The notes under the pieces were generated by a model. That model worked only from the letters and a program-made list of their open reading frames with translations. It had not been told where the DNA came from and did no database searches. The position numbers and the translations under genes are program-made. A stretch of 38,335 bases of DNA, taken from Ignavibacteriaceae bacterium. Its GTDB lineage: Bacteria > Bacteroidota > Ignavibacteria > Ignavibacteriales > Ignavibacteriaceae. Positions 17,129 to 34,900 of the stretch are shown here, piece after piece. The stretch spans positions 1-38,335 of the forward strand of contig JABWCA010000005.1 in NCBI GenBank assembly GCA_013359345.1. The letters run 5' to 3'. Within the stretch, counting starts at the first letter, position 1. Each line of letters opens with the position of its first letter.

Positions 17129-17930
17129 ACCGGCCGAAGAGCAGATTTTCAAGTCTGTAACGTCATCAAAAAAATATAAAAATGTTGATCCCGGTGTTGT
17201 GAACTCTCTGATCCATGAAGGCGGAAAGCGCTTTAAAAAATCGGCCGATATCGAAAAGTATGTCAAGACCAAACTTCATCAGGTGTATGCCGCTTATTCA
17301 GGGAGCATAAACTATCAGAAGATAAATGAACTGATCTCAGAAATCAGCCCGTTAAACATCTCTGAGAAGATAAACCTTCTCCTTATGATGCATTCTTCAA
17401 CCTCAGAACGGCTGCCTTATTATGATGCCGTGAGAGATAACATTCTCAGGCTGACAGGCACACCCTTTAATCGTGTTCATGATCTTGCCTGCGGACTTAA
17501 CCCCTTCGCCTTCCCGCTGCTTTTTCCGGATGGCAAGACAATTTACACAGGCACTGATATTGACAGCAACCTCACCGGTGCTTTTGAGAGCTTCTTTGTG
17601 AAAACGGGATTTCCAGGCAGCTATCTCTGTTCATCAATAACAGGCGGCGGCCCTGTTTTTTCTTCGCAGTATATATTCCTGCTGAAAACCCTCCCCTGCC
17701 TTGAACAGCAGAAAAAAGGGGTTACAGGCGAAATACTTGACCGTCTTGATTTTGAATATCTTGTGGTCTCTTTCCCGACCCGTTCCCTCACGGGTAAAAA
17801 GAAGGGAATGAATGAGTTTTACGGAGCCGCATTCAGAAAGGTTATGGATTCCCGCGGATGGAAATACAGCTCCTTTGAGATCCCGAATGAATTATTTTTT
17901 GTTGTTAAGGGGGGAGAAGGCGCTGATTGA
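17121..17930 (+). CDS. FmrO/Rmt-like 16S rRNA (guanine1405-N7)-methyltransferase
   Basis: This 269-residue member of the Arm/Rmt/FmrO family methylates N7 of G1405 in characterised relatives and blocks 4,6-disubstituted 2-deoxystreptamine aminoglycosides. The family motifs are complete: SSKKY (15-19), LHQVYAAY (52-59), HSSTSER (91-97), the SAM loop DLACGLNPFAF (121-131), D146 in GTDIDSN, LLKTLPCLEQQKKG (187-200), and SFPTRSLTGKKKGM (217-230). The start appears to be the TTG at 17121, which overlaps the tgt stop; AAGGGG lies about 8-13 bases upstream. This overlap argues for a housekeeping operon and not a recently acquired resistance cassette. Activity on G1405 is inferred from motifs and has not been shown. 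Confidence 0.85.
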   Translation: MDKPAEEQIFKSVTSSKKYKNVDPGVVNSLIHEGGKRFKKSADIEKYVKTKLHQVYAAYSGSINYQKINELISEISPLNISEKINLLLMMHSSTSERLPYYDAVRDNILRLTGTPFNRVHDLACGLNPFAFPLLFPDGKTIYTGTDIDSNLTGAFESFFVKTGFPGSYLCSSITGGGPVFSSQYIFLLKTLPCLEQQKKGVTGEILDRLDFEYLVVSFPTRSLTGKKKGMNEFYGAAFRKVMDSRGWKYSSFEIPNELFFVVKGGEGAD

Positions 17931-17969: not shown

Positions 17970-18887
17970 TCAGTATTCAATCTCAAAATTCACTGAAAGA
18001 AACCGGATGTTCATGATATCGTCTTTTTTAAGGATGTTATAAACGGTTTCCTTAACCGGTTTATACCACTTCTTCGCGGAAAAAAATTCCTGATAAACAG
18101 AGTCTCTGAAAATTTTGCCTCTCGCTGCCAGTATTGTCATAATCAGATTTTTGGCATCCTGATTGTCAAGAGCTGCAACATCTTCTTCTTTAAGAAGCCT
18201 GCCTCCCGCCAGAATTAATTTCTCTGCCTTCAGATAATCAGCCGCTTTTGCAAGACTGCTGCTGTTCAGATCAACCTTCCCCTTTTTGCCGTCAGCAACA
18301 CCTTCACCGGTCGGTTCAGCTTTGGCTTTTTCGGAGAGCAATTTAAAAAGCTCGTCTTTATCAGGTTTGGCGGCGTTATCATCACGGTTTGCAGCTCTTC
18401 CCGGTGATGATCCCGTTTTTGTTTTTTCCTGCATGGTTACCTGCCCGAGAATATCAAGTCCCAGAAGAGCCATTTTCAGATTCATCATACGGTAATGAGG
18501 AGAGAATTCAAGCAGGTCTTCATCTGAAAGACCTGATGATTCAATTGCATCAGAAAGCCCGGTCTGAAGCTCCTGGAGCAGCAGAAAATTGTCTTCGGCA
18601 TCAAGTGAAAGTGAATCAAGCGCTGCCGAAATGATCCCGTACTTCACAGAATCTGTTTCAGCTTCTGCCAGGGTGGTTAATGAATCATAAGTTCTGAAGT
18701 AAAGCTCTGCCTTCTCAAGTTCATCTTTGATCAGAACAGAGAGGCTGTCTATGGTAAGGATGAAAGTGATATTCTTCACATACAGAATATCGGGATCCGT
18801 TTTTTCCTGCTCATAATCCTGCCCCTCTGCAGTTCCGCAGAACACGGCAAATATTATCAGAGCGGGTAACAGGTGTTTAAGAGACAT
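17970..18887 (-). CDS. Exported protein of unknown function
   Basis: I recognise no family. The 305-residue product has a signal peptide (hydrophobic residues 5-18, likely cleavage after GTAEG) and no further membrane span. The mature part is strongly helical and rich in Leu, Asp, Glu and Lys, suggesting an alpha-helical bundle or coiled coil. A basic/acidic linker with alternating Gly, Lys and Asp (about 160-205) separates two halves. The C-terminal half contains KKWYKPVKETVYNILKKDD. It is convergent with the Rmt-like gene, 39 bp away. A GAATGC...GCATTC pair lies in that gap, too weak to call a terminator. Confidence 0.75.
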   Translation of the reverse strand: MSLKHLLPALIIFAVFCGTAEGQDYEQEKTDPDILYVKNITFILTIDSLSVLIKDELEKAELYFRTYDSLTTLAEAETDSVKYGIISAALDSLSLDAEDNFLLLQELQTGLSDAIESSGLSDEDLLEFSPHYRMMNLKMALLGLDILGQVTMQEKTKTGSSPGRAANRDDNAAKPDKDELFKLLSEKAKAEPTGEGVADGKKGKVDLNSSSLAKAADYLKAEKLILAGGRLLKEEDVAALDNQDAKNLIMTILAARGKIFRDSVYQEFFSAKKWYKPVKETVYNILKKDDIMNIRFLSVNFEIEY

Positions 18888-19414
18888 TTTAACTAAAAAA
18901 CTTTCAGGAATAAATATGAATGTATACTGATTATATCACTTCCGCAAGCCACAGGTTCCCCCGCAACTGATATTCCGGATCACATATACGGTATGTGTCA
19001 CCCGCAGCCAACCGGCTGATAAGAAAACCACCTCCGGCATTATGCAGGTTTAAAAGCGGATTCAGGTGTCACCGCTGAGGTTTGAAGCCTCATGCAGGCA
19101 GTGCTTAAGAAATCGCTGCACCATTTTTTGCCGTACATTTGATCAGAGGGTGAACTGACTGGGGGCAGATGAACAGTGAGCGGGCTGATCAGGTGCGCAT
19201 AACCATTTTACTGACCTGCCGTAATCAGGTGTGCCGGTGCTGAGTTCTTTTCCATGGTCAGCCGGCAGATCCTCAATTGAAGAATAATTAACTTCCTGCC
19301 GTTTCAGGCAGGGTGCATCTCACAGAGAGATTCATAAAAAGACAGGCTGAGATGCAACCGGCGGATGATCCTGCCGGCTGCACAAAAGACCCGGTGCATG
19401 CCTCCGGCAGCACA
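18888..19414. other. Gene-free GC-rich intergenic region with inverted repeats
   Basis: I see no convincing gene in these 527 bp. A hairpin CCTGCC-GTTTCA-GGCAGG lies at 19295-19312. An imperfect inverted pair containing CAGCCGGCA lies at about 19259 and 19380, and CCGGC/GCCGG flank ten bases at 19358-19377. TCAGGTG recurs at roughly 19057, 19188 and 19226. The composition is richer in GC than most other noncoding gaps here. It lies beyond the 3' end of the signalling operon. It could hold transcript ends, a small RNA or decayed sequence. Confidence 0.4.
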
Positions 19415-19666
19415 TTATTCTGACTGAGAGCCTGAATCCAGCTTTTCCTTGATTCTGATAAGCTTTTTCTGAGCCTTATCTCCCATCCTGGCAATTCTGA
19501 CAGCATTTTTTAACAGCTGCGCATACTTTTCGGCCAGAACATTGTATTCAATTCTCAGCTCTATCAGATCAATTTCCTGTTTTGAAACAACCTTTTTTGT
19601 TCTTTCTATAAACAGAAAATCATCCCTGAAGATTTTTTCAGCTTCGTCATGCTGCATTTCACTCAT
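19415..19666 (-). CDS. Small coiled-coil protein, possible stand-alone SiaD-stalk-like SiaC partner
   Basis: This 83-residue, almost wholly helical protein has no membrane span or signal peptide. The segment VLAEKYAQLLKNAVRIARMGDKAQKKL resembles the helical linker found just before GGDEF domains in diguanylate cyclases, but no GGDEF follows. In Pseudomonas the SiaC protein binds the stalk helix of the cyclase SiaD. As this gene directly follows siaC, I infer a SiaC partner that has lost, or never had, the catalytic domain. A strong AGGAGA overlaps the siaC stop, nine bases before the ATG, showing coupled, efficient translation. The resemblance is by eye only; an unrelated small helical protein is possible. 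Confidence 0.75.
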   Translation of the reverse strand: MSEMQHDEAEKIFRDDFLFIERTKKVVSKQEIDLIELRIEYNVLAEKYAQLLKNAVRIARMGDKAQKKLIRIKEKLDSGSQSE

Positions 19667-19675
19667 TATATTCTC

Positions 19676-20050
19676 CTATTCTTCTGTAACTTCGAAAGGA
19701 TAGCTGACCTCATCTCTGAGTTCTTCACCCATCTCTTTGATATCTTCGTCATCGGCTTTGTAATACCAGTTCACTTTAACGCTGAGCCCGACCTTCGCAA
19801 ATTTATCAAGCTTATCAACAATGTCAGAAATATATTTAATTGAACTTGAATTAAGATAATCAAGCCTGAAGACAAAATTAATATCTCCGGTTACTTCCAG
19901 TCCGTACCTGTTAATCCATTTAAGCACAGACGCATAAAAGTCGCTTGTATTCTCGGGATATGACGAACCCCTTATTTCACAAATCCCGGATGCAGCATCC
20001 ATTGAAACAAAAGGGCTTGTCTTGGTACCCTGTATTATCAGATTTTCCAT
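19676..20050 (-). CDS. siaC: SiaC-family regulatory phosphoprotein (DUF1987)
   Basis: This 124-residue protein has the SiaC/DUF1987 signature: TSPFVSMDAASGICEIRGSS at the N-terminus, SYPENTSDFY with W45 in the following helix, and FRLDYLNSSSIKYI at about 61-74. In Pseudomonas SiaC a threonine in the equivalent NTSS motif is phosphorylated by SiaB and dephosphorylated by SiaA. Here that residue is S68 in NSSS, still phosphorylatable. The unphosphorylated form activates a diguanylate cyclase there. The gene abuts the fused phosphatase-kinase gene and has GGAGA at good spacing, so the switch proteins are co-produced. The family call is confident; the output is not known. Confidence 0.9.
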   Translation of the reverse strand: MENLIIQGTKTSPFVSMDAASGICEIRGSSYPENTSDFYASVLKWINRYGLEVTGDINFVFRLDYLNSSSIKYISDIVDKLDKFAKVGLSVKVNWYYKADDEDIKEMGEELRDEVSYPFEVTEE

Positions 20051-21745
20051 TTATTCTCCAGATTTAACTGATACTATTATATTTATAAAACATCTCTCAG
20101 AATCAATATCCGTCTCAGAGATCATCACGGGGTTTCCCGTTCTCCTGATCACTTCAGCAAGACCGATGCCTGCACCTTTTGAAGTTGATTCTGATTCCTC
20201 TTTAATTTTGTTTTTCCTGTACTCATTAAGCTGTTCAGCCGTGAGGGAATTTAAGTATTCAACCTTTTCTTTCACTCTCCTGTAGTTGGCAGCAGAGATT
20301 ATATTCTTAAAGCTCAGCTCAATGATTCCGTTCCTTAAAACCGCTTCAAAACAGCCGCCGGCTCTCTCATGCCTGTTAAATTCATTCCGGTCTTCCGAAT
20401 AATGAAGAATATTCTGCAGAAGCTCATTTGCACAGAAAAAAGCGGTTTTCACTGCCTTTGGCGTCACCCTCTCCTCAAGCCCAGCACGAAGTTTATCACC
20501 CAGCTCAACAACTATATCATAAGAAAGATAGCCGTTGTAATGAATGATTTTTGAATCATCGGAGGCAGCCAGTCTTATTCCGAGAATGGTGACATCATCT
20601 CTCTGTGATTCATTTCCTATATGCTTCTTAAAAGCTTCGGATAAAATAAGCCTCTGCTCAATAAGAGGCCTTGCATGAATCTTCTGAAGCAATGATCTCA
20701 GGGCAGAGATCCCGAACTTCTGATTTTCACTGTTGTTCTGATCAGTATAACCATCAGTGAAGAGATAAAATTCAGCTCCGCGCCCCGCATTTAATTCATG
20801 ATTTGTGTAACTGATCTTTTTTCTGTTATCACCAATTGATTTCCTGTCACCTTTAATTTCCATCAATTCACCGTCAATGAAAATGAAAAAGCTTCTGTAT
20901 GCCCCCGCCACGGTAAGAATACGGGTATCGGGGTTGTAAGCGCAGATTGCAATATCCATTCCGTCAAAAGTTGCGGTTTCCTCCTCTTTGCGCAGCTCTT
21001 TCTGCACACGGAGATCAAGGTTGTCAAGAATACGGCCCGGGTCAGTGATCTGATTCATGTTAACAATCTCATTCAGAAGAGTGTTTGCCACCATCGACAT
21101 GAACGCCCCCGGCACGCCATGACCGGTGCAGTCAACCACAGCAGCCAGTTTAATGTTTCTGATTGTTGTGGACCAGAAAAAGTCACCGCTGACAATATCT
21201 TTGGGGAAAGAAACCAGAAAACTTTCCGGAAAGACTTTATGAAGATGAACATCATTATGCAGAACAGCGTTCTGAATGCGCCTGGCATAATTAATGCTGT
21301 CGGTAATGTAAGTGTTCCGTTCTTCAAGCTCACTGTTTTTTGCAGCAAGATTTTCTCTCACTATCTTAAGCTCAAGATGATTTTTCACTCTTGCCAGCAC
21401 AACAGGCGGGCTTATCGGCTTGGTTATGAAATCAACTGCGCCGAGTTTAAGGCCTCTGGTCTCATCTTCAACCTGCGACATTGCGGTTACAAAAACCACC
21501 GGGATATCTTTTGTTGACTCATCCTCCTTGAGAATCCTGCAGACCTCAAAACCATCCATGCCCGGCATCATTACATCAAGCAGGATAAGATCAGGCCTGT
21601 TTTCACTTTTAACAATGGCAAGCGCCTTTTCCCCGTTAAGGGCAACGCTCTTTTTATAATTTCTGAGAACAGCCCCCAGAAGATCAATATTTTCGGGGGT
21701 GTCATCAACAATCAGTATTCTCTGGTTACTCAGATCGTTACTCAT
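20051..21745 (-). CDS. Receiver - PP2C (SiaA-like) - SiaB-like kinase fusion protein
   Basis: This 564-residue cytoplasmic protein has three parts. Residues 1-125 are a response-regulator receiver with phospho-acceptor D57 in LILLDVMMPG and a lysine in FITKPIS. A coil leads to a SpoIIE/PP2C phosphatase (about 175-395) whose metal ligands lie in IVSGDFFW, VDCTGHGVPGAFMS, LFTDGYTDQ and RDDVTILG. Residues about 400-564 match SiaB-type kinases (DUF6272): IHYNGYLSYDIVVELGDKL, an N-box-like ANELLQNILHYS, and a G-box-like KGAGIGLAEVIRRTG. In Pseudomonas the phosphatase SiaA and the kinase SiaB are separate proteins with opposite action on SiaC. Here both are joined behind a receiver, so a phosphorelay could set the balance between them. 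Confidence 0.88.
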   Translation of the reverse strand: MSNDLSNQRILIVDDTPENIDLLGAVLRNYKKSVALNGEKALAIVKSENRPDLILLDVMMPGMDGFEVCRILKEDESTKDIPVVFVTAMSQVEDETRGLKLGAVDFITKPISPPVVLARVKNHLELKIVRENLAAKNSELEERNTYITDSINYARRIQNAVLHNDVHLHKVFPESFLVSFPKDIVSGDFFWSTTIRNIKLAAVVDCTGHGVPGAFMSMVANTLLNEIVNMNQITDPGRILDNLDLRVQKELRKEEETATFDGMDIAICAYNPDTRILTVAGAYRSFFIFIDGELMEIKGDRKSIGDNRKKISYTNHELNAGRGAEFYLFTDGYTDQNNSENQKFGISALRSLLQKIHARPLIEQRLILSEAFKKHIGNESQRDDVTILGIRLAASDDSKIIHYNGYLSYDIVVELGDKLRAGLEERVTPKAVKTAFFCANELLQNILHYSEDRNEFNRHERAGGCFEAVLRNGIIELSFKNIISAANYRRVKEKVEYLNSLTAEQLNEYRKNKIKEESESTSKGAGIGLAEVIRRTGNPVMISETDIDSERCFINIIVSVKSGE

Positions 21746-21771: not shown

Positions 21772-24700
21772 TTAAGTTCTTTCAGACGCCTCAGAAATCA
21801 GCTTTTCAACTGTCTCTGATGCGCCGTCAAAATCATACCCCTGAATCTGTTCGGTCAGTCTGGCAAGCAGATTCTGATCAAAAAAAGAACCCGAAGTATT
21901 AATGAACTCCTCAATTTTTGAGGCAGTGTCAAAATCATTCTCTTTAACCATCACTGCAAGTCTGTTAAGTCCGGCAAGAACCTCTTCACGGTTAAACTCA
22001 GCCTGTGCAGCGGCAGGTTTTTCTCCGAGTTCGGTCTTCAGTGATTCAAAATACTCCATGAGTTCACTGATCACATTCCGGAGATTATTTCTGAACTTAC
22101 TGAAGATCTTCGGTTCAGGATTGATATCATTCTTAAGATTCTCCTCAAGTTTTTTTGCCGCCTCAAAAAGCTGCACTGCGCCGAGATTACCCGCCACACC
22201 TTTAACCGTATGAGCAAGCCTTACTGCCAGCTCCTGGTTGCCTTCGGCAATGGCTTCCTGAATCTCCTCATCGGCTGTTTCTGATGTCATGGCAAATTTG
22301 CTCAGCAGTTTGAGATAAAGCTTCTTATTGCCGCTCACACGCGCAAGTCCGTCATGAGTGTTGATGTGCAGAAACGAGGGAATAGTGATTTCGTCATCCT
22401 TTCCTACCGGCTTTAACCCTGCTGATTCAGTTTCAGCAGACCTTGCACCTTTTCTTTCACCCGGCTGAATCCACTTCAGGAGAACCCTGAAAAGCTCATC
22501 GGGATCAACCGGTTTGGTGATAAAATCCTGCATTCCCGTTTCAAGGCATTTTTCCTTCACTCCCATAATGGCATCGGCCGTCATGGCAACAACGGGAAGC
22601 CCTGAATATTCGGGGATCGCCCTGATTTCCACTGTGGCAGTAAACCCGTCCATCACAGGCATCTGTAGATCCATAAGAACAAGGTCATATTTTGAGGGGA
22701 GTCCTGAGCTCTTCACCATCTCAACAGCTTCATGCCCGTTATTTGCAATGTCAATTATGAAGCCTGCGTTTTCAAGTATCTCTGATGCCACCTGCTGATT
22801 TATTTCATTATCCTCGGTGAGAAGAATTCTTGCACCGGTGATCGTTTCAATAAGATCGGAATATTTGGTTCCTTTTTCGGTTATCGCAGAAGTTGTTCTT
22901 GTCTCCCGCCCGAAAACTTCCATGATAGTGTCAAAAAGGGTTGAAGGCGATACAGGTTTTACCAGGAATCCTTTAATTCCGACTTCCCTGGCCCTCTGAG
23001 CCACTTCATCGCGCCCGAACGATGTTACCATAATGATCGTGGGGGTCTTGATTTTCTTTTCGTGTATTATGATTTTAGAAGTCTCAATTCCGTCGGGATC
23101 GGGCATTCTCCAGTCCATCAGCACAAGATCGAATTTGGTGGGTTCGCTTGTAATGAGATCGATGGCCTCATGCCCTGTGGAAGCAAGAGTGACATTGAAA
23201 GTAAATGATTCAAGCGCGTCTTTAAGGATAATTCTTGAAGTTTCATTATCATCGCAAACCAGTACATTAAGCCCTCTGAGATCAATTGAGGGCACAAACG
23301 CATCTTTATCCTGGTTATCCTGCATTTCAAGCGGCACGGTGAAACAGAACGTGCTTCCTTTGCCGAACTCACTTTCAAACCAGACAGTGCCGCCCATCAT
23401 TTCGGCAAGAGATTTTGAGATGGCAAGCCCAAGGCCGGTTCCGCCGTATTTTCTTGTGGTTGAGCTGTCTGCCTGTGAGAATTTTTTAAATATCTTCTCT
23501 TTCTGCTCAGCGGTCATACCTATGCCGGTATCACGCACAGATATTTCAAGCGTGATATTTTTATCCTTCTTATCCCTGACTTTTATGCCGACAACCACTT
23601 CACCTTTTTCAGTGAATTTAATTGCGTTTGAGCAGTAATTGTTGATAATCTGATTGATTCTGAGCTGGTCACCAATCAGCTTGTAAGGAACATCACGGTC
23701 AACCCGTATGCTGAATTCTATTCCCTTTTCCTGAATCTTATGAGCAGTCAGATTTGAGATGTTTTCAATGATATTTTCCAGATCAAAATCAGTACTTTCA
23801 ATTGTAAGCTTGCCCGCTTCAATTTTTGAGAAATCAAGGATATCATTAATTATGCCCAGAAGCGCAAGTGCAGATTTTTCAATTTTTGCGATATAGTCTT
23901 TCTGCCTCGGGTTAAGGTTCGTTTTCTGCACAAGATGCGAAAGCCCGATTATAGCATTCATGGGAGTTCTGATTTCATGTGACATTGTTGCGAGGAACTG
24001 GCTCTTTGCCTGCGTTGCCGCCTCTGCCAGTTCTTTTGCCTCGGTAAGCTGGTTCTGGATGTGTATTATATCTGTGATGTCAATGATTGACCCCACAACA
24101 CACTCTTCCTGATCATAAAAGATAGGAATAAATGAAACGAGACACTCTCTGAGCTCGCCGGTGCCGTACCTCTTAAATGTCACATTCTCATTATGCAGAT
24201 AACCTTCGGTTTTAACCTTTGCGGTCAGCCGGTTGCGCTGCTCAGGGTTGGCATACCATTCAAAAGACCTCATTCTCGTGAAAGCCTCACTATCAACCAC
24301 ATGAAACTCAGTCATCGCCTCATTTGCCCGTTTTACAATACCCTCTTTCAAGGTTATTACAGCGGTTGGAATGGGGATCAGGTCAACTATAATATCTGCC
24401 GCTTCTTTTGCTTTTCTGAGTTCTTCTTCAGCTCTTTTTCTTTCTGTGATATCCTTAAAGATTATAACCGCCCCAATCACCTTTTCATCTTTGAGAAGAG
24501 GTGTGCTGGCATATTCAGCAGCAAAGTGAGAACCGTCTTTCCTCCAGAGCACTTCATTATCTATCTGTGAAAATTCTCCGTAAGTGTAAGATCTGTACAT
24601 GGGGCATTCTTCAAGCAGATACACGGTCCCGTCTTCATGAGAGTGATGAATTATACCGTGGACGCATTTTCCCATGAGCTCTTCTTCAGTGAATCCGAGC

Positions 24701-27198
24701 ATTTCAAGCGCCCTGAGATTAATGAATGTCATATTGCCGTTCATGTCACACCCGAATATCCCCTCGTTCGCAGAATTAAGGATAAGCCTGCTTTTCTCCT
24801 CGGCTTCTGCCATGGCCTGTTCGGCTATAACTGCATCGGTAACGTCAAACCTCACAGAATAGTATTCAACCGGCTTTCTTGTGGGACCAAGCACGGGAAC
24901 AATAACAGTATCAAGCCAGAAGAGTTCACCCGATCTGGTTTTATTACAGATTTTATGCCGCCAGACAGAACCGCTCCCGATCGTTCTGTACATATCGGCC
25001 CAGAAGGTTTTGGGGTGATAGCCCGAGCTCACGATTCTGAAATTTTCACCTATAAGTTCTTCCCTGCCGTAACCTGATACTCTGCAGAATTCTTCATTCA
25101 CAGATAAAATATTGCCCTGCAGATCTGTTGTGGTTACAATAGCAGATGCATTAAGCGCTTTAGTCTGAGATGTCAGTTTTGAATTGAGCGCATTCACTTC
25201 AACAAGAATCTCTTCAAGAGTCTGTGTTCTTTCAGCAACCCTGTTTTCCAGATTCCTGTTAAGCTCAATAACCTCTTCCTCAGATTTTTTCTGTTCAGTG
25301 ATATCAATATGTGTGCCTACAGTCAGGTTAGAAAGTTCACCGTTTTCATCTCTTATGGTTCTGCCTCTTGCAAGAATCCATCTGTATGAACCGTCAGCGT
25401 GCCTCATCCTGAAATAACTTTCATATTCTCCGTCTGATGCCCCTTTAAGATACTCGCTGAATTTTAACCGGGCAGCATCGAGGTCCTCAGGATGCAGGAG
25501 CGCTTCCCAAGCCGAATTATAATTAAGTTTTCCGTCTTTTTCAACTTCGGCGATATCCATTCCCAGCATTGAAAAATATTCAGGGGAATACCAGATTGAG
25601 TTATCGGAAGAATTATACTCCCAGGCACCGGTCTTTGAGGCTTCAATAAGCGCCTTGTACCTTTGTTCATTTTTGGCGAGCATAACCTCATAATTTTTTC
25701 TTTCTGTTATATCGGTATGAGTGCCCACCATCCTTAAACTCTGCCCATCTTCATCAAACCCCACAACAAGGGCTTTGGCATTTATCCAGATTGTATCGCC
25801 GTTCTTTTTAGACATTCTGTAATCAAGCTCAGCCCCCTTGCCTGATTCCTTAATTCTTAGAATTGTTGAATACGTCATCTCCCTGTCTTCAGGATAAGTA
25901 AGTTCAATCCATTTTTCAACCGTGGGAGTAAATTCAAAAGGACTGTAGCCAAGCATCTCAAATATCCGCTCACTGAAATAGAGCTCCCTCGTTTTGAAAT
26001 TAAGATCAAAAATACCGTCATTTGCCGCTTTGAGAGCATACTTGAACCGGTGTGATATGTAATCAAGCTCCTCCTGCTTTTCACGAATGGCGGTGATCAT
26101 ATTATTAAATGAGTTGCCAAGTTCAAAAATCTCATCTTTTGTTGAAAGCACCTCAATATTCTGAGGTTTTACATCCGAAATTTTACTTACCTGGCCCGAA
26201 AGATATTTAATCGGTTTTGATATTCTGTTTGCCGCGGTAATAAGAATGATAATCAGCACAAGAACCAGTACCAGAGAAGTATATAAGCTGGTTCTCTGCC
26301 CCTGGGCAACTCCCTCCAGAATTTCATCTTCATCAACAAGAATGGCAATGCTCCAACCTTTCTGATGCACGGGGTGGGTATATGCCCAGTAATAAGTGCC
26401 GTCAAGTGAATCTGACATGATTCTCATTTTCACCTTTTCACCGGCTATCATTTTGCTGCCGAGCTTCCTTAAATCCTCACTGTTTTTTTCGCTGTTTTTT
26501 ACCGTAAGTATATTATCATAATAAATTCTTTCATCCTTTTTATGGTAAACATACTTGCCTGCCGAAGATATAATATAGATATCAAGACTCCTGAATGAGC
26601 CGAGATCCAGGAAAACGTTAAACCGTCTCACATCAAGAAGAACGCTTGCCACCCCCGCAAATTTATTATTATGATAGATGGGAGAGCTGGTGCTTATAAC
26701 TATTTTTCCGGTCTCTGCATCAATGTAAGGATCACTCCAGTAAACACTCCCGGTCTCTTTGGGTACTCTGTACCAATCCTGATTCTGATAATCAGAAATA
26801 GCGGAAATATCACGCACCAGAGTAGTGTCGTTAAATTTTGTGGCGGCATCGTAACGCACCCTGCCGTTGTTATAAGATGGTTCAAACGCAAACCGGGATG
26901 AAATAATTTGCGGGCTTCTGGAAAGATCATTTATAAGAAAAGAATAAGCTTCTTCTCGGGAGACAAAGTCCGAAAATCTGACAAAATCAGCTCCGGCATC
27001 ATTGATCATTTCAAGTTCATGCATTATATCGCTGACTCTCTTTGATTCCTCATCAGCAATTATCTTCATCATTGCATCAATGCTTTCCTGCTGATTAACC
27101 CTGTTAATGTAGCTTACGGCAAAATAGTTAATAGTCAGAATGATCACCAGGGGTGTCAGAATGAATATAAGCAGTCTTTGTTTGATGTTTTTCTTCAC
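21772..27198 (-). CDS. Giant hybrid histidine kinase: Cache-HAMP-PAS(5)-HK-REC-REC-HPt
   Basis: This 1808-residue membrane sensor has, in order, a membrane helix (about 8-30) and a periplasmic double-Cache domain (about 40-295, with DWYRVP and SSPIYHN). A second helix (about 304-323) and a HAMP domain follow, then five PAS domains between about 385 and 1045 with a coiled coil near 640-680. HisKA has H1074 in MSHEIRTPM, and the ATPase carries GTGLGLAIS. Two receivers have D1362 and D1510, and the HPt domain has H1663 in LAHTVKG. A helical tail of about 90 residues follows. The start is GTG at 27198, where the signal-anchor begins. It probably senses a small periplasmic ligand. The HPt is the natural donor to the receiver of the downstream Sia-type protein, 26 bp away. 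Confidence 0.92.
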   Translation of the reverse strand: MKKNIKQRLLIFILTPLVIILTINYFAVSYINRVNQQESIDAMMKIIADEESKRVSDIMHELEMINDAGADFVRFSDFVSREEAYSFLINDLSRSPQIISSRFAFEPSYNNGRVRYDAATKFNDTTLVRDISAISDYQNQDWYRVPKETGSVYWSDPYIDAETGKIVISTSSPIYHNNKFAGVASVLLDVRRFNVFLDLGSFRSLDIYIISSAGKYVYHKKDERIYYDNILTVKNSEKNSEDLRKLGSKMIAGEKVKMRIMSDSLDGTYYWAYTHPVHQKGWSIAILVDEDEILEGVAQGQRTSLYTSLVLVLVLIIILITAANRISKPIKYLSGQVSKISDVKPQNIEVLSTKDEIFELGNSFNNMITAIREKQEELDYISHRFKYALKAANDGIFDLNFKTRELYFSERIFEMLGYSPFEFTPTVEKWIELTYPEDREMTYSTILRIKESGKGAELDYRMSKKNGDTIWINAKALVVGFDEDGQSLRMVGTHTDITERKNYEVMLAKNEQRYKALIEASKTGAWEYNSSDNSIWYSPEYFSMLGMDIAEVEKDGKLNYNSAWEALLHPEDLDAARLKFSEYLKGASDGEYESYFRMRHADGSYRWILARGRTIRDENGELSNLTVGTHIDITEQKKSEEEVIELNRNLENRVAERTQTLEEILVEVNALNSKLTSQTKALNASAIVTTTDLQGNILSVNEEFCRVSGYGREELIGENFRIVSSGYHPKTFWADMYRTIGSGSVWRHKICNKTRSGELFWLDTVIVPVLGPTRKPVEYYSVRFDVTDAVIAEQAMAEAEEKSRLILNSANEGIFGCDMNGNMTFINLRALEMLGFTEEELMGKCVHGIIHHSHEDGTVYLLEECPMYRSYTYGEFSQIDNEVLWRKDGSHFAAEYASTPLLKDEKVIGAVIIFKDITERKRAEEELRKAKEAADIIVDLIPIPTAVITLKEGIVKRANEAMTEFHVVDSEAFTRMRSFEWYANPEQRNRLTAKVKTEGYLHNENVTFKRYGTGELRECLVSFIPIFYDQEECVVGSIIDITDIIHIQNQLTEAKELAEAATQAKSQFLATMSHEIRTPMNAIIGLSHLVQKTNLNPRQKDYIAKIEKSALALLGIINDILDFSKIEAGKLTIESTDFDLENIIENISNLTAHKIQEKGIEFSIRVDRDVPYKLIGDQLRINQIINNYCSNAIKFTEKGEVVVGIKVRDKKDKNITLEISVRDTGIGMTAEQKEKIFKKFSQADSSTTRKYGGTGLGLAISKSLAEMMGGTVWFESEFGKGSTFCFTVPLEMQDNQDKDAFVPSIDLRGLNVLVCDDNETSRIILKDALESFTFNVTLASTGHEAIDLITSEPTKFDLVLMDWRMPDPDGIETSKIIIHEKKIKTPTIIMVTSFGRDEVAQRAREVGIKGFLVKPVSPSTLFDTIMEVFGRETRTTSAITEKGTKYSDLIETITGARILLTEDNEINQQVASEILENAGFIIDIANNGHEAVEMVKSSGLPSKYDLVLMDLQMPVMDGFTATVEIRAIPEYSGLPVVAMTADAIMGVKEKCLETGMQDFITKPVDPDELFRVLLKWIQPGERKGARSAETESAGLKPVGKDDEITIPSFLHINTHDGLARVSGNKKLYLKLLSKFAMTSETADEEIQEAIAEGNQELAVRLAHTVKGVAGNLGAVQLFEAAKKLEENLKNDINPEPKIFSKFRNNLRNVISELMEYFESLKTELGEKPAAAQAEFNREEVLAGLNRLAVMVKENDFDTASKIEEFINTSGSFFDQNLLARLTEQIQGYDFDGASETVEKLISEASERT

Positions 27199-27227: not shown

Positions 27228-30200
27228 TCAGATTCCGTAACCGGGGAAAAATTTATCAATTTTGTTTCTCAGAACTTTTGCACTGAATGGCTTGGAGATG
27301 TAATCATCAAATCCCGCCGCAATCAGGTGTTCCTCATCTCCGAGCGAAGCATAAGCGGTGCATGCAATGGCAACGGCATCACGGTATTGCTCCATCTTTC
27401 TGAGCTCCGTAAGAACTTCAACACCGTTTTTCCCCCCGCCAAGGTTTATATCAATTATAAGCAGGTTAAAATTGTTTGCCGATGCAATCTCAACAGCAGA
27501 ATAATAATCTGCACAGTCACTTATTTTCTCAATTTTTCTCAGAAAAGTTCTGGCAACATCAATTGCGAGAGGGTCATCATCCACAATCAGAATATCAGGG
27601 GCACCGGTCTGCACTTTTGCCGGTGCGCTCTCAGAGCCGCCTTCTGAAGTTTCAGCCGTCTGATTTCCTTCACCGTCTTTCACTCCGGCTTCAGGGAAAA
27701 CGAGCCTGAAGCTTGAACCTTCACCGGGAGTGCTTTCAACTTCAATCCTTCCTCTTAAGAGGTCAACATATTTTTTGGTGATGGTAAGCCCGAGGCCGGT
27801 GCCTTCATGAATTCTGCTCATCCCCTCGCTTGCCTGTCTGAACTCTTCAAATATAAGGGCAAGTGAATTTTCATCAATGCCTATGCCTGTGTCTTTCACT
27901 TCAACAGACAGATTTCTTTCACCGCCTGACACCATGACCGTGACCGAAACCGAGATGCCGCCTTCATTTGTGAATTTAACTGCATTATCAAGAATGTTGC
28001 TTAATATTGTGTCAAACATCCCGGGATCAAGCTCCCAGACCAAAGGTTGATCAGGCAGATTTATATTAATCTGAAGATTTTTTGCCCGAATGATATTTTC
28101 ATAGATCCTGACGGATTCAGAAACCGCTTCGCTGACATTCATTTCCTGATAGTCAATTTCCTGCCTGTTTGATTCAATGCGAGAAAGATCAAGAATCAGA
28201 TTAAGTGTTCTGAGCAGCCTGTGCCCTGAGTTAAATATCGTTTGAGCCATATCAAGAACATCAGAGTCTTTCACCATATCGGTCATGATTTCAGCATAAC
28301 CAATAACACCAATAAGGGGCGTTCTGAGCTCATGGCTCATGTTTGCAAGGAAATTTGATTTCAGGCTGTTCATTTCTTCTGCTTTATCACGTGCAGATAC
28401 AAGCTCCTCAATCAGCTTCTTTCTGTCGGTGATATCTTTCAGGAATGATATCATTGAATTATCATCGGTCTGGCTCATGGTTACACTCACTTCAACATAA
28501 AAAAGTGAGCCGTCTTTTCTGCGGTGCACTGCCTCCCATCTTCCGGAGCCATTTAAAGTAAGCTGCTTAATCCTCTCGCCGGAACTTTCAAGATCTTCAT
28601 TGACATCAAGCCTTGTGATGTGCATTTTAAGCAGTTCACTTCTGGTGTACCCCGTCATGCTGCAGTAAGCATCGTTAACTTCGGTGATGTAACCTTCCTG
28701 ATTAACAATTAAAAAACCATCCTGAGCCGTTTTCAGAATATTTGAAAACCTTCTTTCTGATTTTTTCTGTGTGATTTCAGCAAGCTTTCTTTCAGTGATA
28801 TCCCTGCCGACCGAGAGGAAATGGGAGATATTTCCCTCTTCATCCTTTACGGGGGTTATGTTCCTGTCTTCAAAGGCATAGGTGCCGTCTTTTCGCTTGT
28901 TAATCACCTCAGCACGGAAAGTCTCACCTGAAATGATGGTATCCCACATTGTTTTATAAAAATCCCTGTCTTTAATGCCTGATTTAAAGATCCTCGGATT
29001 ATGACCCACAACCTCATCCCGGTCATAGCCGTAAATATTAAGCAGAGCCGAGTTCACGTACTCTATTACACCGTTCCGGTTAGTGATAAAAATGGTATCA
29101 GCGGTCTGTTCAATTGCAAGCGAAAGCCTCTTAACCATTTCCTCATTTTTTTTAATTTCGGTCACATCTTTCATAACGGCAACAATATAGGCCGGCTGAT
29201 CATTTTTATCTTTAACAAGCGAAGCAGAACTTTCGCACTCTATCCATTTTTTATCTTTCCTGAAAACCGTGAGTTCCACGCCTTCAGAGTGGCCGTTTTC
29301 GGCACATTTCCTGAAATGCTCTTTTGCTGCTGCCTTGCTGGTCTTATCTATGAACTCATCACAGCTGTGCCCCACAATCTCAGAGAGGTTTTCAAGCCCG
29401 TACAAATTGAGAGTGTTATCATTAGCCCACTTAACATTACCCTCAAGATCAATGATCTTTATGCCTTCGTTCAGAGTTGAAAGCAGCTTTTCGTACAATT
29501 CGGCAGCTTCTTTCAGTTCCTCCTGTGTGTTTTTATCTTTGGTGATGTCAACATTTGTGCCCACAATTCTCAGCGGTCTCCCCTCAGAATCTCTTGAAAC
29601 CACTTTGGTTTTTGCCTGAATCCAGCGGTACCCGCCGTGGCCGTCATCCACCCTGAACTCACAGTCAGAAATGTCGGTTTCACCCTCAAGCATTGCGTTA
29701 ATCTTATCTATAACCGGATCTTTATCCTCAGGTAAAATATCCTGAATGAGGAATCCGTAAGAATCGTCGCTGGCTTCTGTCTCTCTTCTTATTTTATTAT
29801 AGGCAGGCGAAAAATACTTTTTGTTATTCTGAATATCCCAGTCCCAGATTCCCTCAAGCGATGCCTCCATGGCAAGCCTGAGCCTCTCCTCACTTTCTCT
29901 GAGCTGCGCTCCGGCCGTTTTTCTTTCAAGCCGGATCTTGTTTTCCCTCACCTCTCTTCTTATTGCCTCAGCCAGACGGTTCAGATTGTCTTTCATTATA
30001 TAATCGGCCGCCCCCTGCTTCATGAGCTGCACCGCAGTCTGATCACCTATTGACCCTGAAACCACAATGAAAGGAATTTCAGCGCCGCATGCTTTAAGAA
30101 GCTCAAGGGCATTAAGAGCGTTAAAACCCTTCATTGAATAATCTGAGAGAACTATTTCATAGGCATCATCCTCAAGCGCTCTTTTAAATCCTTCAGCATC

Positions 30201-30308
30201 GGTCACCCATTTATAATCGGGTTCAAAACCGCCTTTTTTCAGTTCTCTTAATACCAGCAGGAGATCATCTTCAGAATCTTCAGCCATTAAAACACGCAGC
30301 TTTTCCAT
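27228..30308 (-). CDS. Hybrid histidine kinase: REC-PAS(4)-HK-REC
   Basis: This soluble sensor kinase has 1026 residues from the start I choose. Receiver 1 covers about 1-120 with D56 in VLSDYSMKG. Four PAS/PAC domains fill about 135-630, the last with RFSNILKTAQDGFLIV. HisKA carries H659 in MSHELRTPL, the ATPase shows LDNAVKF, DTGIGI and GTGLGLTIT, and a C-terminal receiver has D953 in LLIIDINLG. There is no membrane span, so the signal is cytoplasmic or arrives through the N-terminal receiver. I prefer the ATG at 30308, with AGAGGA ten bases upstream, over the ATG at 30341, which has no ribosome binding site and lies inside the preceding gene. Confidence 0.9.
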   Translation of the reverse strand: MEKLRVLMAEDSEDDLLLVLRELKKGGFEPDYKWVTDAEGFKRALEDDAYEIVLSDYSMKGFNALNALELLKACGAEIPFIVVSGSIGDQTAVQLMKQGAADYIMKDNLNRLAEAIRREVRENKIRLERKTAGAQLRESEERLRLAMEASLEGIWDWDIQNNKKYFSPAYNKIRRETEASDDSYGFLIQDILPEDKDPVIDKINAMLEGETDISDCEFRVDDGHGGYRWIQAKTKVVSRDSEGRPLRIVGTNVDITKDKNTQEELKEAAELYEKLLSTLNEGIKIIDLEGNVKWANDNTLNLYGLENLSEIVGHSCDEFIDKTSKAAAKEHFRKCAENGHSEGVELTVFRKDKKWIECESSASLVKDKNDQPAYIVAVMKDVTEIKKNEEMVKRLSLAIEQTADTIFITNRNGVIEYVNSALLNIYGYDRDEVVGHNPRIFKSGIKDRDFYKTMWDTIISGETFRAEVINKRKDGTYAFEDRNITPVKDEEGNISHFLSVGRDITERKLAEITQKKSERRFSNILKTAQDGFLIVNQEGYITEVNDAYCSMTGYTRSELLKMHITRLDVNEDLESSGERIKQLTLNGSGRWEAVHRRKDGSLFYVEVSVTMSQTDDNSMISFLKDITDRKKLIEELVSARDKAEEMNSLKSNFLANMSHELRTPLIGVIGYAEIMTDMVKDSDVLDMAQTIFNSGHRLLRTLNLILDLSRIESNRQEIDYQEMNVSEAVSESVRIYENIIRAKNLQININLPDQPLVWELDPGMFDTILSNILDNAVKFTNEGGISVSVTVMVSGGERNLSVEVKDTGIGIDENSLALIFEEFRQASEGMSRIHEGTGLGLTITKKYVDLLRGRIEVESTPGEGSSFRLVFPEAGVKDGEGNQTAETSEGGSESAPAKVQTGAPDILIVDDDPLAIDVARTFLRKIEKISDCADYYSAVEIASANNFNLLIIDINLGGGKNGVEVLTELRKMEQYRDAVAIACTAYASLGDEEHLIAAGFDDYISKPFSAKVLRNKIDKFFPGYGI

Positions 30309-30312
30309 CAGC

Positions 30313-30753
30313 TTAAAATCCTCTTTTCGGGAATGCTTCATTAATCATGAGCCAGTATAAACCAAGGTTTCTTACCGACTCGGTGAATTCATCCATATTA
30401 ACGGGTTTCCTGACGTAACTGTTAACATGATATTCATAACACTCTCTTATATCGCTCTCTTCACTTGAAGAAGTGAGCACAACAACCGGGAGGTGCTTTG
30501 TTTTATTGTTTGATCTGATAAACTTAAGCACATCAATGCCGCTCAGCTTGGGAAGTTTCAGATCAAGCATTATAAGTGCGGGGAGTCTGGATTCATCAGC
30601 AGCGTTAAGATAATCAACTGCCTGCTGCCCGTCTCTGAGAACCATGATATCACTTTTATAATCGCCTTTATTAAGTGCCCTCAGAGTGAGAGCTTCATCA
30701 TCAGGATTATCCTCAACAAGAAGAATAAGGTTATTGCTCAGCATTTTCTTCAT
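30313..30753 (-). CDS. Stand-alone response regulator, Rcp1 type
   Basis: This is a 146-residue single receiver domain without an output domain. The acidic pair lies in LLVEDNPDDEALTLRAL, the phospho-acceptor is D64 in LIMLDLKLPKLSG, and K116 or nearby follows in YVRKPVNM. The NPDDE opening and the LKLPKLSG string are marks of the Rcp1 group, which partners phytochrome-type and multi-PAS kinases whose HisKA reads SHDLRAPL, exactly as in the upstream gene. It overlaps that gene by 23 bases. It may shuttle phosphate to the hybrid kinases that follow, for example to an HPt, since it lacks an output domain of its own. Confidence 0.92.
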   Translation of the reverse strand: MKKMLSNNLILLVEDNPDDEALTLRALNKGDYKSDIMVLRDGQQAVDYLNAADESRLPALIMLDLKLPKLSGIDVLKFIRSNNKTKHLPVVVLTSSSEESDIRECYEYHVNSYVRKPVNMDEFTESVRNLGLYWLMINEAFPKRGF

Positions 30754-33700
30754 CCGCTGTATTGTTTTTAAAGAAGAGATAAAATGTTGTACCCGCGCCG
30801 GGCATGCTCTCTGCCCTTATGGTACCCCCGTGCCTGTTCATGATTCTCTGAACCGTGGCCAGCCCCACACCGGTTCCCGGGAACTCTCCGGCATCATGAA
30901 GCCTCTGGAACACACCAAAAAGCTTGTCATAATATGCCATGTCAAATCCCGCGCCGTTATCCCTTATAAATATCTCCGTTCCCTCTTCACTGAAAGCAGC
31001 CCCTGCTTCAATCACCGCCTTCTCTTTTTTGGAGGTGAATTTAACCGCATTGCTGAGGAGATTTTCAAAAACATTTCTTATCAGTCCGCGGTCAGCCGTC
31101 ACTTCAATACCATCCTGCACATGAAATTCAATCACCCTCCCCGGCGCAGACTCCTTCAGATAATCACAAATTTCATTAATTAGGGCTGTAATGTTCACGC
31201 GCCCTTTTCTCATCGGGTTACGGGTTATCTTTGAGAGGGCGAGGATATCATCAATCATCTCACCCATTCTGGTTGTGTTAGCCCTTATCCTGCCAAAGTA
31301 TTTTTTGGCATCCTCAGGCAGCTGATCAGCAAAATCATCAGAGATGATTGAACTGAACCCGTTAATGGCCCTGAGCGGGGCACGCAGATCATGTGATACC
31401 GAATAGGCAAAAGACTCCATTTCACGGTTCAGATTTTCCAGTTCACGGGTTCTCTGCCTCACCTTTTCTTCCAGGTTCTGGTTAAGGCTTAAAATCTCAT
31501 CTTCGGCAAGCTTCTGCGCGGTTATATCCTGTGATGTGCCGAGAGATCTGATCAGAGTGCCATCGCTGCCGGTCTCATTCACCCATTTCGCCTGAATGAA
31601 TTTGATCCTCTCATTACCGAGAAGCAGACGGTGAACAGTTGAATGCTCTCCCTTCTCACTGAATGAATCACGGAACAGAGCTTCAAAAGAGGCCCTGTCT
31701 TCAGGATGAACCGTCTTAATAAAATCCTCAAATGTAAATCCAAACTCACTCTTCTCCACTTCAAAGATTCTGTACATTTCATCAGACCAGATAAGCTCTT
31801 TATCAGAAGCATTGTAAACCCAGTATCCCATTTTCCCGATCTTCTGCGCCTCTTTGAGCCTTTGTTCACTTTCTCTCAGAGCTTCGTTCATCTTCAGAAG
31901 ATCGGTTATATCCCTGGCAATGCCGAGAACACCCATATATTCACCGCCGGCATCATAAACAGGGGTTTTAATGGCTTCAAAAATTCTCTTTTCAATCCTG
32001 CCTGCGGGAGTCACCATTTCAATATTTGTAACCGGTCCGTTTTTATCAAATGCCTCCCGGTCATTTTTTCTGATAATTCCGGCTGTCTCCTCATCAAGAA
32101 TATCAAAATCAGATTTGCCTCTCAGTTCATCCTCTTTTATTCCCATTATTTTTTCAAACTGATGGTTGCACAGAACATATTTTCCATCAGGATCTTTAAG
32201 CCAGACCAGATCAGGCATTGTTTCAATAAGTGTGCGCAGCCTCCTTCTTTCAGATTCAATCTTCAGAGCAGCAAGTTTCTTTTCAGTTATATCCCTGAAA
32301 AATACAAGCACCCCATCTTTTCTCGGGTTTATGAAGTTCTCAAACCATTTCTTCATCGGTTCAAAATATTCTTCATGAACTACCGGTTTGCCGGTGTTGA
32401 TTGCTTCCCGGTAAGATGTTTCAAACGGACTTTCAACCAGAGCCGGAAACTCCTCCCACATCACTCTGCCCAGAATGTCAAGCCGGGTTTTGCCAAAGAT
32501 ATCGCAGGCATTGGAATTTATGTATGTGTAACGGTCAAACCGGTCAAGAGCCACAAATGCATCAGACATTGTCTCAAGAATGTTCACCACATAATCATGC
32601 TCTTTTTTCAGCTTCTGTTCATTTTTATACTGGTCGGTTATATCCCTGCCTATAGTGAGGAGAGCATATTTTTGACCGGCGGAATTTACAAGAGGGGTTT
32701 TGATGGTATGGAGCACCGCGCTGCGTCCGTCGGTGACATACTTAACCACCTCTGTGTTATGAATTGTTGAGTTGCTTTCATAAGCATAATCATCCAGTTC
32801 CTTATAGAACTGAGCCTGCTCAGCCGGAACAAAATCAAAATCGGTTTTCCCGAGCAGCTCATTTTCCGTATGACCGTAAAGAAGCTCAAACTGCTTATTG
32901 CAGAACAGGAAAGCGCCCTGAGGGTCTTTCACCACCACCACATCAGGCAAGGTTTCAACAAGGGTTCTCAGTCTCTTCCGCTCGAGTTCATATTTCAGTT
33001 CATTATCTTTTTCAAGACTGATATCCTGGAATGTTCCCCTTATTTTTTCTATCCCTGCGGAGCTCACCACAGGCTCGCCTATTGCCCTCACCCACTTGCG
33101 GTTTCCCTCGCCGGTCAAAACCGAAAGATCAAGATTGTAAGGCTGCCCTGTTGTTTTTACGGCTTCAAGCGCACTTAAGAACTGAATTGCGGAATCGGGC
33201 ATCAGATAATTCTTAATCTCATAAACAGAAAGATTCACCGCAGCTTCAATTTCAAATATTCTTGCTATTTCATCTGTCCATTGTGTTTTACCTGTGCTCA
33301 GATCATGCTGCCACCCGCCGATCTTCGCAATGCTGTTGGTGAGATTAACCAGCCCGTTGCTCAGTTTCAGCTCCTCTTCGGCAAGTTTCTTCTCTGTCTG
33401 ATCCCGGATGATCATAACCGATTCACCCGAAAGCGGATCCGCATTAACCCTTGCCTCATAATAATGTCTGCCATCAGGCATGGGGAGTGCATATTCAAAC
33501 ACATGCACTTCTGATTTAAGAAAAGCCTTCTCCAGTTCATTATGACAGATTTCAGCTATATCGGGAGGCAGAACATCTCTCATCTTTTTCCCTATGAACA
33601 TTTCCGGCCTCAGGAAAAGCTCATTTTCATTTGCCTTAAAATCAATGTAAGTGCCGTCCCTTTTTATTCTGAAGATGAGATCGGGCACGGCATCAAGAAG

Positions 33701-34900
33701 AACTCTCATTCTCCTTTCATTTTCCATGATTGTGCGCTCTGTAAGCTTTCTCCCGCTTATATCCCTGATAAAGCCAAAAATCATCATGCCGTCATCCTGC
33801 ATGAGCAGTCTTATGCTTATATCTGCATCCCAGTGTGATCCGTCTTTTCTGCTGTGAACAGATTCAAATCTTGCAAAGCCTTTTTCAAGCAAATCTTTCT
33901 TTAATGCCGCAGGTTTTTCGTGGTCACCTGATACGTCAAAATCAAATACAGATTTGCCGGTTATTTCATCCCTGCTGTAACCTGTAAGTTCAGAATATGC
34001 AGAATTTGTATAAGTTATTTCGCCGGCTTCATTAATTATTATGAATCCGTCGGTAGCTGATTCAAGAACGGCCTCATTCCTGATATCCCTGAGTCTGAGA
34101 TTCTGTTCATTCTCTTTGCGTCTGCTTATATCCCTGATTACAGTAAGGAGGGCGGGTCTCTGATTTAACCTGATTATTTTTGTGAATCCTTCAGCAGGGA
34201 AAGCTCTGCCGGTATAACTTACTGCCTCAATTTCAAATGAAGCCTCGCCATGCAGCTTAAGACTTTCAGTGATTTCAGCCATCTTAACCCTGTTCATTTC
34301 TCCTTCACTCATGAATCCGGTGATACTGATTTCTTCCAGGGTAACAGTATCGCTGATATTGTACAGTTTTCTGGCAGCCTCATTTATATAAATAAGCACG
34401 GGTTTCTCAAAATCCGATATATCGCGCAGAAAAAGCGCAAGGGGAAGTGAGTTGATAACCGTGAAGAGTTCTTCATTGCCGGTGAAGAGTGATTTCAGGG
34501 GTGAGACTGTAAGGATATAACCATATTGATCGCCGGAATTTCTGACCGGTTTGAGGGTGAAGCTGAGACGGGATTTTTCAGTTTTTTCTGCTGAGGCTTC
34601 CGGGAGAACTGATACCTGAACTGTGCCGCCGCCTGATTTATTTAATTCATCTGTTATGCTTTCAGCACACTTTGCTCCCCAGATCTGCTGTATGCTCTTA
34701 CCGGCAATATCATCTTCTTCCATTCCGGTAAGCTTTCGCAGTTCCATGCCTGCAATTCTGATTTTTAGTTCAGGATCAAGGTATGCTGCACCATACGGCA
34801 TTGAATCAATTATTTCACGCAGAACCTCAGACTGGCCGGCGGGAAAATATGACCCTGTGCTCTTCTCTTCCTGATTTTTATTATCTGCTGACTTATTCAT
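30731..34900 (-). CDS. Multi-PAS sensor histidine kinase, about nine PAS domains
   Basis: This 1389-residue cytoplasmic histidine kinase is the first gene of the signalling operon. I count about nine PAS domains between residues 25 and 1130. Several are recognisable by repeated openings such as RRRLRTLIETMPDLVWLKDP and RKRLRTLVETLPDVVVVKDP, which look like internal duplications. HisKA has H1170 in YSVSHDLRAPLRAINGF, and the ATPase follows with LLSNAVKF, DNGAGF and GTGVGLATV. There is no transmembrane helix and no receiver, so the phosphate must go to the Rcp1-type regulator encoded next. Which PAS domains bind a cofactor or ligand cannot be told by eye. Confidence 0.92.
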   Translation of the reverse strand: MNKSADNKNQEEKSTGSYFPAGQSEVLREIIDSMPYGAAYLDPELKIRIAGMELRKLTGMEEDDIAGKSIQQIWGAKCAESITDELNKSGGGTVQVSVLPEASAEKTEKSRLSFTLKPVRNSGDQYGYILTVSPLKSLFTGNEELFTVINSLPLALFLRDISDFEKPVLIYINEAARKLYNISDTVTLEEISITGFMSEGEMNRVKMAEITESLKLHGEASFEIEAVSYTGRAFPAEGFTKIIRLNQRPALLTVIRDISRRKENEQNLRLRDIRNEAVLESATDGFIIINEAGEITYTNSAYSELTGYSRDEITGKSVFDFDVSGDHEKPAALKKDLLEKGFARFESVHSRKDGSHWDADISIRLLMQDDGMMIFGFIRDISGRKLTERTIMENERRMRVLLDAVPDLIFRIKRDGTYIDFKANENELFLRPEMFIGKKMRDVLPPDIAEICHNELEKAFLKSEVHVFEYALPMPDGRHYYEARVNADPLSGESVMIIRDQTEKKLAEEELKLSNGLVNLTNSIAKIGGWQHDLSTGKTQWTDEIARIFEIEAAVNLSVYEIKNYLMPDSAIQFLSALEAVKTTGQPYNLDLSVLTGEGNRKWVRAIGEPVVSSAGIEKIRGTFQDISLEKDNELKYELERKRLRTLVETLPDVVVVKDPQGAFLFCNKQFELLYGHTENELLGKTDFDFVPAEQAQFYKELDDYAYESNSTIHNTEVVKYVTDGRSAVLHTIKTPLVNSAGQKYALLTIGRDITDQYKNEQKLKKEHDYVVNILETMSDAFVALDRFDRYTYINSNACDIFGKTRLDILGRVMWEEFPALVESPFETSYREAINTGKPVVHEEYFEPMKKWFENFINPRKDGVLVFFRDITEKKLAALKIESERRRLRTLIETMPDLVWLKDPDGKYVLCNHQFEKIMGIKEDELRGKSDFDILDEETAGIIRKNDREAFDKNGPVTNIEMVTPAGRIEKRIFEAIKTPVYDAGGEYMGVLGIARDITDLLKMNEALRESEQRLKEAQKIGKMGYWVYNASDKELIWSDEMYRIFEVEKSEFGFTFEDFIKTVHPEDRASFEALFRDSFSEKGEHSTVHRLLLGNERIKFIQAKWVNETGSDGTLIRSLGTSQDITAQKLAEDEILSLNQNLEEKVRQRTRELENLNREMESFAYSVSHDLRAPLRAINGFSSIISDDFADQLPEDAKKYFGRIRANTTRMGEMIDDILALSKITRNPMRKGRVNITALINEICDYLKESAPGRVIEFHVQDGIEVTADRGLIRNVFENLLSNAVKFTSKKEKAVIEAGAAFSEEGTEIFIRDNGAGFDMAYYDKLFGVFQRLHDAGEFPGTGVGLATVQRIMNRHGGTIRAESMPGAGTTFYLFFKNNTADEENAEQ

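Follow-up and report, generated by a model that had tools for sequence, protein, structure and literature searches.

Directly downstream of siaC in the genome of an Ignavibacteriaceae bacterium, we found an 83-residue open reading frame that looks like the docking helix of SiaD without its cyclase, and that is a candidate target of SiaC. In Pseudomonas aeruginosa, SiaB adds a phosphate to SiaC at position 68 and SiaA removes it, and it is unphosphorylated SiaC that binds the stalk (PMC7647112, PMC8457831). The SiaC-SiaD crystal structure places the contacts on the helical stalk (including SiaD residues R74, K77, V78, R80, I81, S82, D83, R84, Y85, Q86 and M88); SiaC T68 inserts between two SiaD stalk helices, and its phosphorylation blocks binding (PMC8457831). 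In the literature we found, work on SiaC concerns only its activation of a single diguanylate cyclase, in Pseudomonas. The authors of the 2021 structure raised the possibility that members of the SiaC family control neighbouring proteins elsewhere, naming no targets (PMC8457831), and we found no description of a stand-alone stalk, or of a range of stalk outputs, in a literature drawn mostly from outside subscription journals.

We think it fairly probable that the genes described here encode a partner switch ending in a free stalk. Hybrid kinases encoded upstream would phosphorylate the receiver of a fused protein, and the receiver, through a long helix leading to a PP2C domain, would set the balance between this domain and a SiaB domain; the PP2C domain would strip phosphate from Ser68 of SiaC, and the SiaB domain would add it. 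Unphosphorylated SiaC would bind and straighten the dimeric stalk, as on SiaD, which phospho-SiaC could not do, and the complex of SiaC and stalk would recruit or release another protein. The output would act in trans, because the stalk carries no enzyme here, and its best candidate class would be the TPR-AAA+ protein encoded downstream of the free stalk in most relatives.

Genomic context

The fused gene, siaC and the stalk gene lie on the minus strand of the window (the whole stretch of 38,335 nt that was analysed, from contig JABWCA010000005.1), among the following features:

30731..34900, minus strand: multi-PAS sensor histidine kinase, 1389 aa (Pfam: HisKA, HATPase and PAS repeats)
30313..30753, minus strand: stand-alone receiver, 146 aa (Response_reg, E = 3.5e-20)
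27228..30341, minus strand: PAS hybrid histidine kinase with receivers, 1037 aa (Pfam)
21772..27198, minus strand: Cache-HAMP-PAS hybrid kinase, 1808 aa (Pfam: HisKA, HATPase, two receivers and a C-terminal Hpt)
20051..21745, minus strand: REC-PP2C-SiaB fusion, 564 aa (Pfam, NCBIfam, AF2 model, catalytic motifs)
19676..20050, minus strand: SiaC, 124 aa, predicted phospho-acceptor Ser68 (PF09345, E = 2.8e-38; solved SiaC, E = 7e-22)
19415..19666, minus strand: free-standing predicted SiaC-binding stalk, 83 aa (motif, SiaD profile matches, AF2 helix, co-occurrence with siaC)
18888..19414, no strand: spacer, 527 bp, at the position of the TPR-AAA+ gene in most relatives

The seven genes, from 30731-34900 through 19415-19666, probably form one operon of approximately 15.5 kb, because they share a strand and lie at gaps of -29 to 29 bp (in order, -23, -29, 29, 26, 0 and 9 bp). 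The gene of the 1389-aa kinase is the first of this probable operon and overlaps the receiver gene by 23 bp; the receiver gene overlaps that of the 1037-aa hybrid kinase by 29 bp, and siaC follows the fused gene with no gap, as the original prediction had it. The 1808-aa hybrid kinase is the likely input to the fused switch. Hybrid kinases also stand upstream of the switch in other loci (L013, L015, L016, L017, L018 and L062), and the close relatives are metagenome-assembled genomes of Ignavibacteria and Melioribacter.

Three other genes of the window are recorded here as separate observations. Positions 17121-17930 (plus strand) encode an FmrO-family 16S rRNA methyltransferase (PF07091, E = 4.6e-38) in what is an environmental Ignavibacteria genome; this family is known for aminoglycoside resistance. 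A YARHG-domain protein is encoded at 17970-18887 (minus strand), 527 bp downstream of the stalk gene, and an M14 zinc carboxypeptidase with a T9SS sorting tail at 35541-38219 (minus strand).

The fused receiver, phosphatase and kinase

A receiver, a PP2C phosphatase and a SiaB-like kinase had been predicted to share one polypeptide, and both the Pfam and NCBIfam domains and the intact catalytic motifs bear this out; all three domains clear their Pfam cut-offs by a wide margin. The chain runs from the receiver (residues 1-125, approximately; Response_reg at 10-120, E = 2.6e-26) through a long helix (113-161) into the PP2C domain (approximately 150-392; SpoIIE/PP2C at 201-392, E = 1.2e-20) and the SiaB-type kinase (approximately 394-560; DUF6272 at 425-553, 79.7 bits against a cut-off of 26.6). 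The kinase part scores 100.7 bits with the NCBIfam model SiaB_fam_kinase (NF038262), above its cut-off of 85, and a Pfam search of the C-terminal domain at E 1 returned no match to HATPase_c_2; the SiaB identity proposed for residues 400-564 held, with both cut-offs passed, and these residues do not fall in the RsbW/SpoIIAB group. The best NCBIfam match of the PP2C part is to SiaA residues 395-657, the full-length SiaA model (NF038263) scoring 190 of 700 over profile positions 395-657 only, and the receiver stands in for the N-terminal part of SiaA.

In alignments, the N-box (NELLQN) and G-box (SKGAGIG) of the kinase are conserved, as are the PP2C motifs (DIVSGDFFW, DCTGHG, TDG and RDD), including the metal-binding Asp residues. 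An AF2 model of the fusion (three sequences, mean pLDDT 70; used for the domain folds, not for their arrangement) matches the solved SiaA-PP2C structure with a Z score of 22.9 and SiaB of the SiaB-SiaC complex with a Z score of 20.3 over 163 residues, and it joins receiver and phosphatase by the long helix.

The survey of gene order that had been proposed found the same fusion in L013, L016, L018, L061 and L083. It is not shared by the whole group, because five of the nine family- or order-level relatives with both domains encode SiaA and SiaB separately. In a tree of SiaC, SiaB and PP2C the window groups with L018, L016 and L083, all fused; because the fused L013 and L061 sit among or beside split lineages, the fusion is, on this tree, a trait gained, or reversed, more than once. 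The original idea of an opposing phosphatase and kinase under one receiver thus stands as regards the fusion itself, its principle being already known from HsbR and SypE. The fused chain is a novel combination of known modules, and a lesser novelty than the stalk because REC-PP2C-kinase chains are already known (HsbR). As a separate case, single chains with two SiaB domains adjoin siaC in L067 (4720-5814) and L147.

SiaC and the stand-alone stalk

The window SiaC matches PF09345 with 130.7 bits (cut-off 24.5) and reaches 109 of 150, below the cut-off, with the P. aeruginosa equivalog model (NF038265); judged by sequence, it is a member of the family and not an equivalog of P. aeruginosa SiaC. 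Position 68 is Ser in the window and Thr in P. aeruginosa, and in a residue comparison based on the contact list of PMC8457831 the SiaD-contacting residues Y65, N67, S68, S69, I71, D79 and E110 are kept. The pair formed by SiaC R103 and SiaD D91 in P. aeruginosa becomes D103 with R or K in most family loci. The contig set of this genome holds a single siaC and a single DUF6272 gene, and a SiaC-based scan of viral contigs gave no relative. Three tandem copies of siaC occur in Bacteroidales and related genomes (L116, L120, L122, L123, L126 and L148), with no recognised siaB or stalk gene adjoining.

The stalk gene begins 9 bp past the end of siaC. The original prediction held that the target of SiaC was missing or replaced; replacement is supported, and the candidate replacement lay inside the span that the prediction described and was overlooked. 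Residues 57-66 of the 83-aa protein form the motif RIARMGDKAQ, which aligns with KVARISDRYQ of SiaD such that R60, D63, K64 and Q66 stand opposite SiaD R80, D83, R84 and Q86; the SiaD contacts S82 and Y85 correspond to G62 and A65, and there is one predicted SiaC-contact motif in the window stalk versus two in SiaD. Single-sequence searches of Pfam, NCBIfam and the PDB with the 83-aa protein returned nothing usable, and profiles were needed. In profile searches of the PDB (177,635 sequences), SiaD (7e6g_A) was the top chain for two stalk profiles, at E-values of 0.03 and 0.055 that are individually not significant; one of these profiles had no GGDEF-bearing member, and the two matched both SiaC-binding motifs of SiaD in register. 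A search of the PDB with profile A1, built of free stalks only, did not list SiaD. The AF2 model of the stalk consists of short N-terminal helices and a long helix (34-82; pLDDT 86). Foldseek returned no match for this model, which is to be expected of so long a helix.

Search for a diguanylate cyclase

None of the window proteins scanned matched GGDEF, in agreement with the original prediction, and the whole genome (99.4% complete, 454 contigs) yielded one GGDEF match (contig C60; locus L002, G000). The domain lies behind GAF-like regions and reads NRKEF where GGDEF is expected; the N-terminal motif of the protein is degenerate, and there is no stalk match. Neither a working diguanylate cyclase nor SiaD, as a stalk with an active GGDEF domain, was found in this genome: the stalk is alone beside siaC, and the sole GGDEF is degenerate and unlinked. 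A full SiaD elsewhere, which had been named as one outcome that would refute the original prediction, was not found either. The classical SiaABCD arrangement would nevertheless make a SiaD-type cyclase elsewhere in the genome the target and c-di-GMP the output; such a gene could be missing from an assembly of 454 contigs, and some relatives in other classes encode stalk-GGDEF proteins beside siaC (L046 and L049). Since this genome, 99% complete, offers just one GGDEF, degenerate and without a stalk match, we consider this explanation highly improbable.

Occurrence of the stalk and its fusions

Within the family the free stalk adjoins siaC in all nine loci: siaC is present in nine copies in 7 of 80 genomes, and the free stalk in nine copies in the same seven, with one further match at E = 0.008. 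Across the phylum, siaC is present in 13 of the 14 genomes with a strong stalk match (the exception being G350), compared with 18 of 296 overall; three unlinked stalk genes occur in siaC genomes (G204, G211 and G342). In a survey centred on siaC (113 loci, 6,903 open reading frames after removal of duplicates), 42 of 47 stalk matches share the strand of siaC and are less than 200 bp away from it. These co-occurrence figures overstate the case, the models having been trained on siaC neighbours and the genomes being related.

Besides Ignavibacteriales, three Bacteroidales loci (L102, L104 and L113) have stand-alone stalks. Beside or near siaC in other loci, the stalk forms the N-terminal part of longer proteins, whose C-terminal part is GGDEF (L046, L049, L089-L091 and L093), class III cyclase (L059, L066 and L130), histidine kinase (L099 and L095), PP2C (L055/L096 and L125), a membrane segment (L061), GAF-HD (L153) or Ser/Thr protein kinase (L094). 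The stalk-GGDEF proteins are, by their domain content, SiaD-like. In L090, L091 and L093 one siaC and siaB come with two stalk genes, one carrying GGDEF and one a histidine kinase, so that a single switch apparently has two outputs. A stalk neighbour is missing from some siaC loci (for example, L051-L054 and L056-L058), and SiaC may therefore have additional targets. L056, L057 and L058 lack a stalk; next after SiaA, SiaB and SiaC comes an ABC transporter of 1023 aa whose N-terminus is TerB-like, which suggests another kind of SiaC target.

These loci without a stalk also favour the view that the stalk is an unrelated coiled coil (binding, for example, only a kinase or the AAA+ machine) and that the target of SiaC lies elsewhere, as do the ease with which coiled coils match one another and the marginal E-values of the PDB searches. 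Three observations speak the other way, and leave this view, to our minds, rather improbable: the conserved core of the stalk is the contact motif, not a general heptad pattern; the same domain heads the GGDEF proteins beside siaC; and this genome has no second strong stalk match.

A wider reading, which we hold tentatively as a possibility a little short of even, is that a transferable stalk of approximately 75 residues makes a modular partner switch for many enzymes (cyclases, histidine kinases, Ser/Thr kinases, phosphatases and HD enzymes), with SiaC as the reader, and that the stalk of Ignavibacteriales is now an adaptor on its own, linking the switch to an AAA+ machine and not to c-di-GMP. 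The stalk offers a sequence handle for finding candidate SiaC targets, the survey naming several enzyme classes and a free adaptor, and the role of a widespread domain of unknown function becomes testable in genomes without c-di-GMP synthesis.

The TPR-AAA+ neighbour

In L012, L013, L014, L016, L017, L019, L062 and L083 a gene for a TPR-AAA+ protein of approximately 1260 aa comes next after the free stalk, on the same strand; the protein combines TPR-like repeats with three AAA+ modules of the CbbX type (two in L019). This neighbour is missing from the window, L018 and L015, and a remnant of it was looked for in the 527-bp spacer and not found. AAA-linked stalks share the tail KYKELMDT.RN, which is lost in the window and L018, and which L015 has kept although its AAA+ neighbour is lost; a role of the tail as an AAA+ docking element would fit its loss in the window and L018. 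The AAA+ protein was rejected as a Sia-specific component: relatives are present in 60 of the 80 family genomes, mostly without siaC. The paralogues in this genome are on other contigs only. One that is nearly complete (contig C109, truncated upstream where the contig stops) groups with paralogues from genomes without siaC and so is no clear match for the missing partner; a fragment on C97 is too short to place.

The absence of the AAA+ gene gives rise to the last alternative, namely that the switch is decaying or a decoy, with no specific output left after loss of the AAA+ protein and a stalk that merely titrates SiaC or is itself vanishing. The tree suggests an AAA+ neighbour in the family ancestor that was lost in the window, L018 and L015; both the window and L018 combine its absence with a changed or truncated stalk tail, and a stop shortens the stalk of L018. 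Against decay, the motif region of the window stalk is intact and the gene has diverged mostly at third codon positions, as has siaC; the reading frames of the operon are uninterrupted throughout and every catalytic motif is retained; and L015 has kept the tail after losing the neighbour. We consider decay unlikely.

Comparison with known systems

With SiaABCD of P. aeruginosa (PMC7647112, PMC8457831) the window shares a PP2C phosphatase and a SiaB-type kinase, predicted to oppose each other on SiaC, the SiaC fold, the position of site 68 and, as a candidate, a SiaC-binding helical motif next to siaC. The window differs in that SiaA and SiaB are fused under a receiver, that the site is Ser68 and not Thr68, that there is no GGDEF domain, and that the presumptive target is a stand-alone stalk with one motif, not two.

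In HptB-HsbR-HsbA-HsbD of P. aeruginosa, a REC-PP2C-kinase chain (HsbR) under hybrid kinases and an Hpt protein sets a phosphorylation state (PMC6482189). The window shares the domain order, a likely input from hybrid kinases and Hpt, and a STAS-like phosphoprotein as predicted target; the kinase of HsbR is of the RsbW/anti-sigma type with HsbA as its target, whereas that of the window is of the SiaB/DUF6272 type with SiaC as its predicted target, and for the window switch neither a cyclase nor a sigma factor partner of the kind found there was identified. SypE of Vibrio fischeri, which acts on the STAS protein SypA (PMC3610818), likewise unites a receiver, a serine kinase and the opposing phosphatase in a single chain, in the order kinase-REC-PP2C; its kinase and target families differ from those of the window.

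The stalk-output proteins of other phyla (L046, L059, L094, L095, L099, L125 and L153) resemble the window in having a homologous stalk adjacent or close to siaC, usually with siaB, and differ in that the stalk is fused to a GGDEF domain, class III cyclase, Ser/Thr kinase, histidine kinase, PP2C or GAF-HD output and is not free. Set beside all of these systems, SiaC with a portable or stand-alone stalk, whose binding and output we infer from sequence, is the new part, and it is of more interest than the fusion.
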